A DNA stretch of 36,536 nt, taken from the NCBI GenBank assembly GCA_018830645.1, contig JAHJSA010000031.1:1-36536 (forward strand), read 5' to 3'. Both the position numbers and the translations under genes were made by a program. The notes beneath the pieces are model-generated. The model was given only the letters and a program-made list of their open reading frames with translations, did not search any database and was not told the origin of the DNA. Source of the stretch: Actinomycetota bacterium (GTDB lineage Bacteria; Actinomycetota; Thermoleophilia; RBG-16-64-13). Below are positions 5,383 to 10,353 of this stretch, piece after piece. Numbering within the stretch: position 1 is the first letter of the stretch; every line of letters starts with the position of its first letter.

Positions 5383-6480
5383 ATGACCGGTACCCCTCGC
5401 GACTACTACGAGACTCTGGGCGTCAACAAGACCGCCACTCCAGACGAGATGCGCAAGGCGTACCGAAAGCTGGCGCGCAAGTATCACCCTGACGCCAATC
5501 CGAACGATCCCGCCGCGGAAGAACGGTTCAAGGAGATCTCGACCGCCTACGAGGTCCTCTCCGACCCCGAGAAGCGCGCGCAGTACGACCAGGGCCCCTC
5601 GGCGTTCTTCGGTCAGGGCGGACGGGGATTCGACCCCCGTGGCTTCCAGGGTTCTCAGGGGTTCGGCGACTTCGCCGACATCTTCGGGAACCTCTTCGGC
5701 GGTGGATCCGGGCGGCAGCGGCAGGCGCAACCGCAGCGGGGGCGTGACATCTCGGTGGCCGTGAACCTCTCCTTCGAGGCGGCGCTCAAAGGGGTGACCA
5801 CGAAGATCAGCGTACCGAAGTCGGTGCGTTGCGAGAGCTGCGGCGGCTCCGGCGCGGCCGCCGGCACCAAGCCCGTTCAGTGCCCGGAGTGCCAGGGGCG
5901 GGGCGTGACCAGCCAGAACCAGGGGTTCTTCGCCCTCTCTCAGCCCTGCGCTCGATGCGGCGGCGATGGCAAGGTGGTCGAGACTCCGTGCCCCACCTGC
6001 ACGGGTCGAGGAGTGACCGAGGCGCTCAAGAAGTACACGGTCCCGTTGCCGCCGGGCGTCAAGGACGGCACCAAGATCCGATTGAAGGGAAAAGGGGAGG
6101 TGGGCGTGCGCGGCGGGCCCCCGGGCGATCTCTATGTGGTCACCCGCGTGGCCGAGAGCGTGCTCTTCCAGCGCCGGGGCGCCGACCTCGTCATGGACGT
6201 GCCCATCACCATCGCGGAAGCCGCGCTCGGGGCGACGGTGCGGGTGCCGACCCCCGATGGTAGAGTTGCCCTCAAGGTGCCCGCCGGCGTCCGCGACGGC
6301 ACGTTGCTGCGCATCACGGGCAAGGGTTCGCCCCGGCTCGGCCGGGAGGGGAGCGGCGATCTTCTCGCCCGCGTCTCCGTGCTGACGCCCACGGAGCTCA
6401 CCGACGAGGAGCGCGTGCTGCTCGAGGAGTACGCCGCCCTCCGAGACGAAGACCCGAGGGCCGGCCTGCCTGGCTGGTGA
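5383..6480 (+). CDS. dnaJ: Chaperone DnaJ (Hsp40, type I)
   Basis: Co-chaperone that delivers substrates to DnaK and stimulates its ATPase. The 365 residues follow type I order. The J domain begins [17 protein letters not shown] and contains the HPD triad in YHPDANP. A Gly/Phe-rich region follows (about 65-105). Four CxxCxGxG-type zinc repeats are present: [24 protein letters not shown] and CPTCTGRG. The C-terminal substrate domain begins near [17 protein letters not shown]. The ATG at 5383 follows grpE by 5 bp with GAGGAG inside the grpE end. The next gene, hspR, begins around the dnaJ stop. Confidence 0.98.
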
Positions 6481-6503
6481 ACGCGGGGGAGAGGGGGAGG
6501 ATC

Positions 6504-6926
6504 ATGGTCTCCGACGATAGGAAGCGTCCGCTCTTCATGATCTCCGTGGCGGCGGAGCTTGCCGAGATGCATCCCCAGACCCTGCGCATGTACGAGCGAA
6601 AGGGGCTGATCAAGCCCAGTCGGTCGTCCAGGAGCACGCGTCTCTACTCCATGGAGGACGTCGAGCGACTACAGCATATCCAGCGCCTGACCTCGGTCGC
6701 GGGCCTCAATCTGGCGGGGGTGGAGCGCGTGCTCGACCTCGAATACCGCATGACGGAGTTGCTCCAGCGTATCGAAGCGCTCGAAGTGGAGTTGGCCGAT
6801 GCGGTGGACGCCGCGCAGCGAGAGCTCGACGAGGCACACCGGAGCTACCGCAAGGAGCTTGTCGCTCTGCCGGGTCGTGAGATCGTACTCCGCGCCGGCT
6901 ACCGTAGGGAGACCCGTTCGAGATGA
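6504..6926 (+). CDS. hspR: Heat-shock repressor HspR (MerR family)
   Basis: Autoregulatory repressor of the dnaK operon that binds HAIR sites, with DnaK as co-repressor. From ATG 6504 it is 140 residues. A MerR-type winged helix begins PLFMISVAAELAEMHPQTL and continues through YERKGLIKPSRSSRSTRLYS, the HspR form of the domain. It is followed by RLTSVAGLNLAGVERVL and a helical, partly coiled C-terminus. GAGGGGGAGG at 6491-6500 supports ATG 6504. A GTG at 6477 overlapping the dnaJ stop would add nine residues and cannot be excluded. The matching operator is seen at 2003-2023. Its basic C-terminal tail (GYRRETRSR) resembles known HspR tails. Confidence 0.95.
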   Translation: MVSDDRKRPLFMISVAAELAEMHPQTLRMYERKGLIKPSRSSRSTRLYSMEDVERLQHIQRLTSVAGLNLAGVERVLDLEYRMTELLQRIEALEVELADAVDAAQRELDEAHRSYRKELVALPGREIVLRAGYRRETRSR

Positions 6927-8470: not shown

Positions 8471-8478
8471 GTGGTCCG

Positions 8479-8505
8479 TTGGCACTCTCCACCCAAGAGT
8501 GCCAA
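8479..8505 (+). promoter_or_regulatory. CIRCE element (HrcA operator)
   Basis: A perfect inverted repeat with arms TTGGCACTC (8479-8487) and GAGTGCCAA (8497-8505) and a 9-bp spacer. The CIRCE consensus is TTAGCACTC-N9-GAGTGCTAA; 16 of 18 arm bases match, and the two deviations are compensatory, so the dyad stays perfect. No T-tract follows, which argues against a terminator for the upstream hydrolase. It lies about 20 bp upstream of the -35 of the fmdB-type gene. HrcA itself is not in this window. In many bacteria CIRCE marks groESL, so its position here is unusual. Confidence 0.88.
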
Positions 8506-8524
8506 CTCCCACGGCCCACCACGC

Positions 8525-8553
8525 TGCACAAACTGTCCCCACTCGGGTATACT
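8525..8553 (+). promoter_or_regulatory. Promoter of the fmdB-type gene
   Basis: TGCACA (8525-8530, 4 of 6 to TTGACA) and TATACT (8548-8553, 5 of 6) are 17 bp apart. The predicted start near 8560 leaves a leader of about 30 nt containing the AGAAGGAGG ribosome-binding site at 8571-8579. The start would lie inside the left arm of the hairpin at 8554-8577. Confidence 0.6.
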
Positions 8554-8577
8554 TCCTTCTGGCTACGGCCAGAAGGA
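8554..8577 (+). promoter_or_regulatory. Shine-Dalgarno-sequestering hairpin before fmdB
   Basis: A perfect 10-bp stem: TCCTTCTGGC (8554-8563), loop TACG, GCCAGAAGGA (8568-8577). The right arm contains most of the Shine-Dalgarno sequence AGAAGGAGG of the next gene. In RNA that starts upstream of 8554 the ribosome site would be paired. In RNA from the local promoter (start near 8560) most of the left arm is absent and the site should be free. A thermosensor-like role is an alternative. Confidence 0.65.
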
Positions 8578-8589
8578 GGTGGACCAGTC

Positions 8590-8955
8590 TTGCCTACCTA
8601 TGAGTACAGGTGCCGAGAGTGCGAGCACCAGTTCGAGCGCTTTCAGAAGATGTCCGACGAGCCTGTGTCGGAATGCGAGATATGCAGCGGAGAGGTGCGG
8701 AAGCTCCTCTTCCCTGTCGCGATACACTTCAAAGGGAGTGGTTTCTACACCACTGATTACGCGAAGAAGAAGACCCTTGCCGCCTCGAACGGGAACGGTT
8801 CGAACGGGAACGGTTCGGCGTCGTGCGATTCCTCCTCTGAGGCTTCCCAGGCGTCGGAAAAGAGCGTTTCTTCGAAGAATGGGGATAGTTCGAAGGTGAC
8901 ATCGGCCGCCGGCACGAAGGAGAACACATCTTCGTCGGCTGCCAAGAGCAACTGA
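8590..8955 (+). CDS. FmdB-type zinc-ribbon protein
   Basis: 121 residues from TTG 8590, with AGAAGGAGG ending 10 nt upstream. The start MPTYEYRCREC is characteristic of the FmdB family of small zinc ribbons. Two CxxC pairs (CREC and CEIC) should hold one zinc, and IHFKGSGFYTTDY is the conserved end of the domain near residue 60. The remaining half is a polar tail rich in Ser, Asn and Gly, with a duplicated NGNGS unit; this is longer than the core family. FmdB was named from a methylotroph amidase cluster where it was proposed as regulatory; its biochemical role is poorly known. Here it has a CIRCE element and a masked ribosome-binding site, so it looks stress-controlled. Family call is firm, function is not. 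Confidence 0.9.
   Translation: MPTYEYRCRECEHQFERFQKMSDEPVSECEICSGEVRKLLFPVAIHFKGSGFYTTDYAKKKTLAASNGNGSNGNGSASCDSSSEASQASEKSVSSKNGDSSKVTSAAGTKENTSSSAAKSN
8785..8814 (+). repeat. Two 15-bp tandem repeats inside fmdB
   Basis: The unit TCGAACGGGAACGGT occurs at 8785-8799 and again at 8800-8814, encoding the duplicated Ser-Asn-Gly-Asn-Gly unit in the tail of the zinc-ribbon protein. The length is a multiple of three, so copy-number change would lengthen or shorten the tail without a frameshift. Confidence 0.85.
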
Positions 8956-8979: not shown

Positions 8980-10353
8980 GTGGCAGACCAGCCTCCCCAA
9001 ACCGACGCCCGCAACGGCTCCGACGCCTCTCTGCCGGATTCGGGTGCTTCACCGTGGGCGTCACCGCTCGGGCGCTGGCTGCGCGGTCTCATCGACGACT
9101 CGACCACGGTACTTCCCAGCCTCTCGTCCGTCATAGAGACGGCCCGGCGTGAGCTGGAGCGTTCCTCTGCTCTCGGGGTCCTGTTCGTACGCTTCGAGCA
9201 GTGGGGTCTGGCCGTCGAGATGTTCGGGTGGAGAGACCTGCAGAAGGTGTACGAGTTGGGGTCCGGCATCGCCATGGACATGGTCGGCGACGGCCTTCGC
9301 CAGGTGGATCTGCCGGCCGACCTCGGCCTTCGCGGAGAGGGCTTCGCCATCGTCCTCTCCGGACCCCGGCAGGCGGCCCGCCTGGAAGTCGACGTCGTCG
9401 ATATGGTCGCCGAGCGGGTGGCCTCGCTCGTGCGGGAGCGTCTGGCCGGCAACTTGGCACCCGAACTCCTGGAGCGCATCTCTGTGGAGGTGGGTGCCGG
9501 TATGGTGTTTCGCCCGGGCACCGACGAGACACTGGAAGACGCCTTGGTGGCCGGGCTGGTGACGGCCGATTCGGAAGCTCGGCGCAAGCAGGACGAGCAC
9601 CTTCTCGAGTTGGGAGACCGGCTCGAAGAGGTTATCGAAGAGGGGAGGATCGTCCCTCTGTTCCAGCCGGTCGCCGATGTCGAGTCACAGAGGATCGTGG
9701 CGTTCGACGCCCAGATCCAGGGCCCGTTCTATCTGAACCTGCGCCTCGGCGACGTCCTGCTCGACGTGGCCGCTCGTACCGGGCTGCGCCATCGGGTGCT
9801 CGACCTCTACCACCACAGGGCCCTCGAGTCCGCCGAAGACGGTGTGGGCGGAGTGGAACTGCTGATACTGCGGGCCGCGTCCAGCGATCTGTTAGAGAGT
9901 GCCGTGCGGGTATTGTCGCTCCTGTACCGCCGGGGCGCCGCGCGCATGACGCCGGCGAACGTCCTGTTCATGGTAGACGCGGCGGAACTCGCCGACCGCT
10001 TCCCCACAGGGCTCGCGGTGTGGCACTCGGTGGCCGATATGGGGTTCCGCCTGGGCGTGGACCTCGCACCCAACCGACCCCTGCCCCTCGACTATATCCG
10101 CGAGCTGAGACCCTACTTGATCCGCGTGAGCGGCCGGAACGTCCGCGCTCTGCATCGCCACCAAGACGAGTTCGAGTTCCTGCTCATGCTCTGCCGATTC
10201 GCGGCGCGTGGCGACATGCACGTCCTCGCCGCCGACTGCACCGATCGGCGCGAGTTCGTGGCGCTGCGCCGTGCCGGGGTTTCCTACCTGCAAGGTGAGT
10301 TCGTGGCCCCCTGCTTCACGTCGCCGGTCCGGCCCGAGTTGACTCTGCCCTGA
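8980..10353 (+). CDS. Degenerate GGDEF-EAL domain protein
   Basis: 457 residues from GTG 8980 with GGAGG 5 nt before it. Residues 55-200 follow a GGDEF-domain pattern (LGVLFVRFEQWGLAVEMFGW, later LRGEGFAIVLSGPR), but the signature is RGEGF at 118-122 instead of GGDEF. Residues 210-450 follow an EAL pattern (IVPLFQPVADVESQRIVAFD), but EAL is replaced by DAQ at 243-245. The DDFG region reads VDLAP. Key catalytic and metal residues are therefore missing from both halves. It probably neither makes nor degrades cyclic di-GMP; binding of a nucleotide or a protein partner is more likely (inference). No membrane segment or sensor domain is evident beyond a 50-residue polar N-terminus. It lies 24 bp after fmdB and may share its regulation. 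Confidence 0.75.
   Translation: MADQPPQTDARNGSDASLPDSGASPWASPLGRWLRGLIDDSTTVLPSLSSVIETARRELERSSALGVLFVRFEQWGLAVEMFGWRDLQKVYELGSGIAMDMVGDGLRQVDLPADLGLRGEGFAIVLSGPRQAARLEVDVVDMVAERVASLVRERLAGNLAPELLERISVEVGAGMVFRPGTDETLEDALVAGLVTADSEARRKQDEHLLELGDRLEEVIEEGRIVPLFQPVADVESQRIVAFDAQIQGPFYLNLRLGDVLLDVAARTGLRHRVLDLYHHRALESAEDGVGGVELLILRAASSDLLESAVRVLSLLYRRGAARMTPANVLFMVDAAELADRFPTGLAVWHSVADMGFRLGVDLAPNRPLPLDYIRELRPYLIRVSGRNVRALHRHQDEFEFLLMLCRFAARGDMHVLAADCTDRREFVALRRAGVSYLQGEFVAPCFTSPVRPELTLP

Follow-up and report, generated by a model that had tools for sequence, protein, structure and literature searches.

Organization of the locus

The stretch of DNA analysed here (referred to as the window, 36,536 nt) carries a dnaK-hsp20-grpE-dnaJ-hspR cluster and, just downstream, ruc, a gene encoding a small zinc-ribbon protein and preceded by a CIRCE element, the operator of the heat-shock repressor HrcA. 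The features relevant to this study are the following:

2003-2023, + strand: HAIR-like box CTTGACA-N7-ACTCAGA, 10/14 matches to the consensus, overlapping the dnaK -35
6477-6926, + strand: hspR, last gene of the dnaK-hsp20-grpE-dnaJ-hspR cluster, order conserved
8479-8505, + strand: CIRCE, arms TTGGCACTC-N9-GAGTGCCAA, kept in relatives
8525-8530, + strand: TGCACA, a weak -35-like hexamer separated from the -10 by 17 bp and lacking conservation in the family
8543-8553, + strand: inferred -10 region TCGGGTATACT, family consensus T-Y-C-G-S-TATAMT
8571-8579, + strand: ribosome-binding site of ruc, AGAAGGAGG, read from the sequence
8590-8955, + strand: ruc, FmdB-type zinc-ribbon protein of 121 aa, TTG start, identified by Pfam/NCBIfam models and by comparison with Ruc
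8980-10353, + strand: degenerate EAL-domain protein gene, 24 bp after ruc, identified by profile match

CIRCE begins 8 bp past the stop codon (8470) of a metallo-beta-lactamase-fold (MBL) gene and ends 84 bp before the TTG start of ruc (8590); its arms TTGGCACTC and GAGTGCCAA enclose the loop TCCACCCAA. The sequence-only reading of this locus had counted 16 matches among the 18 arm bases, with compensatory changes, and this count is exact: the dyad at 8479-8505 follows the consensus TTAGCACTC-N9-GAGTGCTAA except at position 3 of each arm, where A to G and T to C changes preserve the pairing. It had also described a perfect 9-9-9 repeat; the CIRCE dyad is present, but perfect pairing actually extends over 11+7+11 positions (8478-8506). 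No other CIRCE match exists in the window at up to three mismatches, and the chance expectation derived from 100 dinucleotide shuffles of the window is 0.

Across the family to which this genome belongs, the genes are ordered dnaK-hsp20-grpE-dnaJ-hspR-orf-(MBL)-ruc-(EAL)-surE-ligA, the MBL and EAL genes being variably present and ruc constant. The assignment of hspR is supported by the HspR model NF047375 (score 118.7 for a cut-off of 105), and the position of ruc just downstream of the cluster is as previously noted. Upstream of dnaK lies a promoter of the form TTGACA-N17-TATAAT, whose -35 is overlapped by the HAIR-like box. Nine family genomes retain this box with minor changes; it has four mismatches, and no HAIR box was found in the window at three or fewer. 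This conserved box and the conserved gene order agree with the earlier suggestion that two heat-shock circuits meet here, an HspR-type circuit and an HrcA circuit being predicted side by side at the locus. Both repressors are likewise present in Campylobacter jejuni, where they co-regulate; there HspR binds upstream and HrcA on the start site, whereas here the upstream position would be that of HrcA, and the ruc promoter shows no conserved HAIR box (PMC7464140).

The gene following ruc had been read as a degenerate GGDEF-EAL gene. Its EAL domain is indeed degenerate (signature DAQIQG), but GGDEF gave no match in the product of 8980-10353. Not all family members have the EAL gene next to ruc: it adjoins ruc in the clade in which CIRCE and the -10 are 41-42 bp apart, and is therefore no constant component of the circuit.

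The downstream gene and the Ruc family

The ruc product matches PF09723 (E 2.4e-15) and TIGR02605, 'FmdB family zinc ribbon' (E 2.4e-18). Its N-terminus reads MPTYEYRC8REC11 and is followed by C29EIC32 and an FKGSGFY motif, forming a CxxC-N17-CxxC zinc ribbon with cysteines 8/11/29/32; the remaining tail of ~60 residues, as read from the sequence, is of low complexity and rich in Ser, Asn, Gly and Lys. Because Ruc carries its cysteines at exactly these positions, gene 8590-8955 can be assigned by sequence comparison to the Ruc family as the counterpart of Mycobacterium tuberculosis Rv0991c.

In M. tuberculosis, the primers used to study Ruc correspond to M-P-T-Y-S-Y-E-C8-T-Q-C11 and C29-E-R-C32; the protein binds one zinc via its cysteines, becomes a chaperone once oxidised and aids DnaKJE, and its gene is directly repressed by HrcA, along with three chaperonin genes, and induced by SigH (PMC7448276). 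In other phyla, ruc is found near dnaK, grpE, clpB and hrcA, and the C-terminal tails of Ruc proteins are known to vary (PMC7448276). The window protein and M. tuberculosis Ruc share the four cysteine positions, the 17 residues between the CxxC pairs and a disordered hydrophilic tail, and their genes share an upstream HrcA operator and a functional tie to DnaKJE and GroESL. They differ in the sequence of the tail, which is not conserved between them, and in the setting of the window gene, embedded in a dnaK-hspR neighbourhood. Of the earlier description, an FmdB-type zinc ribbon of unknown role, the zinc ribbon stands (PF09723, TIGR02605) and the unknown role is outdated, so that the novelty is lower than then supposed; the suggested chaperone-related role was right and had already been published for M. 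tuberculosis Ruc (PMC7448276).

A metagenome-assembled Deinococci genome (locus L152, JASBRS010000030.1) encodes a CIRCE-linked Ruc homologue devoid of all four zinc cysteines (MPTYVYKNLTTGDTFEIKQSMSDPALTEHPETGDPVKR...) that keeps FKGSGFY. Such a protein offers a way of asking whether Ruc can do without redox control.

HrcA and CIRCE sites across the genome

The assembly amounts to 3.87 Mb in 112 contigs and is 99.8% complete. An hrcA gene, whose absence the sequence-only reading had regarded as an argument against its proposal, is present in a single copy (C89:216288-216944; PF01628 E 3.5e-43, above the Pfam cut-off), with hemW and a second dnaJ as neighbours, and has no CIRCE of its own. At up to two mismatches, CIRCE occurs three times genome-wide, against 0 for a reversed control pattern. 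The two best sites precede ruc and groES-groEL, the latter being the only close-consensus CIRCE besides that of ruc. The third CIRCE-like site (C89:55160, arms TTGGCGCTC) is separated from the next gene by over 500 bp and was given low trust.

Two further arrangements were encountered in relatives. A sister species carries a one-mismatch CIRCE (G001:C29:80773-80799; L195 2774-2800) shortly upstream of an aminotransferase-like gene, which is possibly a further HrcA target. In a related family, two tandem copies of CIRCE precede groES (L047, G018:C23:71290-71345).

Conservation of the CIRCE-ruc link

Genes matching PF09723 are present in all 41 genomes searched, that is, the genome of the window and 40 relatives. 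The family of the window comprises 18 genomes, one of which was left out as the relevant stretch reads N; in the 17 readable ones, without exception, CIRCE (up to three mismatches) lies upstream of the Ruc-type gene, the outcome that the sequence-only reading had named as support for its proposal. No CIRCE was found upstream of 17 paralogous FmdB-type genes of the same family, where the best candidates have 6-9 mismatches. Elsewhere in the class, the site recurs in some families (f2, f7 and f8), and in others none was detected close to the gene copies inspected.

A pattern combining CIRCE, a gap and PTYxY, applied to genome contigs, returned at least 120 matches; among the 120 listed, 119 are in-frame Ruc/FmdB genes and the remaining one (L088) is a chance match. 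The matches listed span several phyla and include Gordonia, Williamsia, Cellulomonas, Arthrobacter, Nocardioides, Pseudonocardia, Acidimicrobiales (Acidimicrobiia), Chloroflexota, Armatimonadota and one Deinococci bin. Two strict CIRCE-ruc patterns identified 8 and 11 genomes, among them all seven sampled members of the large-genome family f26, while reversed controls yielded 0. Since these are only 19 of the 246 genomes sampled in the phylum, the link is patchy outside certain families. We found no earlier description of CIRCE with FmdB in the open-access literature, subscription journals being outside the scope of the search.

These comparisons bear on what the dyad and its neighbouring gene are. 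A location so close behind a stop codon would suit a palindrome arisen by chance, or a terminator for the MBL gene. The shuffles predict no such dyad, its arms match CIRCE base for base, it has no T-run and drew no terminator call, and across 17 relatives the arms are kept while the loop varies; the probability of this explanation is practically negligible, and we discarded it on the conservation, the shuffles and the missing T-run. It is more conceivable, and still quite improbable, that the ruc product is a generic FmdB-type regulator or metal-binding protein and not a Ruc-type chaperone. Automatic models do label it as FmdB family, and experimental tests cover only a minority of FmdB-type proteins. 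Against this, the Ruc cysteine positions, FKGSGFY, the Ser-rich tail, the HrcA operator and the DnaK neighbourhood are all present, and the other FmdB-type genes of the family, which mostly begin MASYDL and lack FKGSGFY, are without CIRCE.

Promoter geometry at ruc

In the classical groESL arrangement (Bacillus subtilis type), a consensus promoter precedes CIRCE, which lies across the transcription start. This genome's own groESL conforms to it, the family groESL genes placing CIRCE 9-10 bp after a TTGACA-N17-TATCAT-type promoter, and in C. jejuni footprints HrcA lies over the transcription start, its usual position (PMC7464140). The ruc gene has the same operator and presumably the same repressor, but here CIRCE lies upstream of the promoter, 42 bp before the sole -10 conserved at this gene (TATACT in the window), so that simple roadblock repression is not obvious. 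This -10 is of the extended type, a G preceding TATAMT by two bases in 17/17 family ruc loci, and the -35 is weak in all of them and not conserved.

Nine genomes have 41-42 bp (SD 0.5) from CIRCE to the -10 and eight have 28-31 bp (SD 1.1), these genomes being related and the two classes following two clades (approximately those with and without the EAL gene), so that few independent events underlie the spacing. The spacer itself has a median pairwise identity of 0.35 and 0.31 in the two classes vs 0.27 and 0.25 after shuffling. At groES of the same family, by contrast, CIRCE and the start codon are a variable distance apart (SD 11.9). The constrained spacing suggests that HrcA bound to CIRCE acts on the TATACT promoter. 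We tentatively propose, as a possibility that we would not call probable, that HrcA controls ruc in this family from a site upstream of the promoter, centred at about -54 to -68 from the inferred start and phase-locked to an extended -10 lacking a good -35. If true, this mode of action would differ from the start-site roadblock at groESL in the same cell and might involve direct contact with RNA polymerase. Only this operator position looks new, the CIRCE-ruc link itself having already been shown in M. tuberculosis; the open-access literature yielded no earlier description of HrcA acting upstream of promoters, subscription journals again being outside the scope.

A strong hairpin at 8546-8585 (18-nt inverted repeat, 83% complementary, TACG loop) pairs with the ruc ribosome-binding site. 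As an RNA thermometer it was rejected for the family: it occurs only in the two genomes of the genus, the changes in its left arm are uncompensated in the second, and most of this arm would precede the inferred start. Within the genus of the window, represented by these two genomes, the hairpin might act as a thermometer.

Ruc promoters in other lineages

A TANNNT box stands next to the start of CIRCE in 67 of 113 distinct ruc loci taken from named genomes (8.4 expected from shuffles), and in 54 of these 67 the last T of the box is the first T of CIRCE. A box abutting CIRCE in this manner occurs in one of the 17 family loci vs 67 of the 113 elsewhere.

A second layout appears in 21 of the 113 loci, where the CIRCE loop begins with GGAA. 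GTT follows exactly 23 bp after GGAA in 14 of these 21 loci vs 2 of the other 92, and the combination can be read as a SigH/SigR-type promoter interleaved with CIRCE. The predicted SigH/SigR-type loci are those of Gordonia L079, L091, L095, L117, L128, L143, L169, L178, L185 and L188, together with L072, L083, L109 and L150. In M. tuberculosis, the SigH promoter of ruc overlaps the HrcA site (PMC7448276), and the layout with GGAA in the loop extends this overlap to other genera. M. tuberculosis differs in this respect from the window, which has an extended -10-type conserved promoter 42 bp downstream of CIRCE; no SigH-type GGAA -35 was found in the 17 family CIRCE loops, including TCCACCCAA of the window. 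In addition, TTGAC occurs within the CIRCE loop at four loci, mostly of Chloroflexota or Dehalococcoidia.

Two accounts of the unusual geometry at ruc have to be weighed. HrcA may work from its upstream site by helical phasing, through contact with RNA polymerase or DNA bending at an extended -10 with a poor -35, thereby repressing or, under some condition, even activating; this would refine the mechanism within the HrcA-CIRCE-ruc circuit and not replace it. The fixed spacing across a near-random spacer, set against the variable distance at groES, speaks for it, as do three Armatimonadota/Zipacnadia loci with the same upstream layout (38-39 bp, good TTGACA or TTGACT -35). Given the few independent events behind two clades of related genomes, and that HrcA is otherwise known to repress from a position over the start site, we consider this mechanism a serious candidate that falls somewhat short of even odds. 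Alternatively, TATACT would be a housekeeping promoter outside HrcA control, CIRCE governing a second, unseen promoter that overlaps it like the SigH promoter of M. tuberculosis. Overlapping SigH and HrcA sites are documented in that species (PMC7448276), and in Gordonia and relatives the -35 GGAA coincides with the first four bases of the loop. However, the family loops share neither GGAA nor any other motif, a -10-like hexamer abuts CIRCE in just one of the 17 loci, and the fixed spacing to TATACT is left unexplained; a second promoter is thus unlikely.

Proposed circuit and its significance

What was observed directly is the CIRCE dyad with its conservation and its restriction to the Ruc-type paralogue, as well as the hrcA gene, the cysteine pattern and the gene order. 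The reading that we favour, with a probability of about 85%, is that the dyad would be a functional CIRCE bound by the single HrcA of this genome, placing ruc in the HrcA regulon together with groESL, and that Ruc would be an oxidation-activated chaperone handing clients to DnaK-DnaJ-GrpE. In unstressed cells, HrcA on CIRCE would hold ruc low. Upon heat or proteotoxic stress, HrcA would be released, in the classical model by titration of GroEL, and ruc would then be transcribed from the TATACT promoter just downstream of CIRCE. Oxidation of the four cysteines would release zinc and free the disordered tail, which would hold unfolded proteins and pass them to the DnaK-DnaJ-GrpE system encoded a few genes upstream under HspR. 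That the zinc-ribbon gene may belong to the HrcA regulon had been anticipated from the sequence alone, and CIRCE in 17/17 family genomes together with hrcA argues for it; what we infer is that HrcA binds, in which direction it controls ruc, that Ruc is redox-activated in this species, and how HrcA would work from the upstream site.

These results lend sequence support, far beyond mycobacteria, to the published view of Ruc as part of the core heat-shock machinery, and in many cases proteins annotated as 'FmdB family' could be sorted according to whether or not they are CIRCE-linked Ruc proteins. With its fixed, non-classical distance from CIRCE to the promoter, ruc offers a directly testable case of HrcA acting from upstream. 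When the lineages are compared, with a -10 fused to CIRCE, a SigH-type -35 inside CIRCE or CIRCE upstream of the promoter, promoters are seen to turn over around a constant repressor site.
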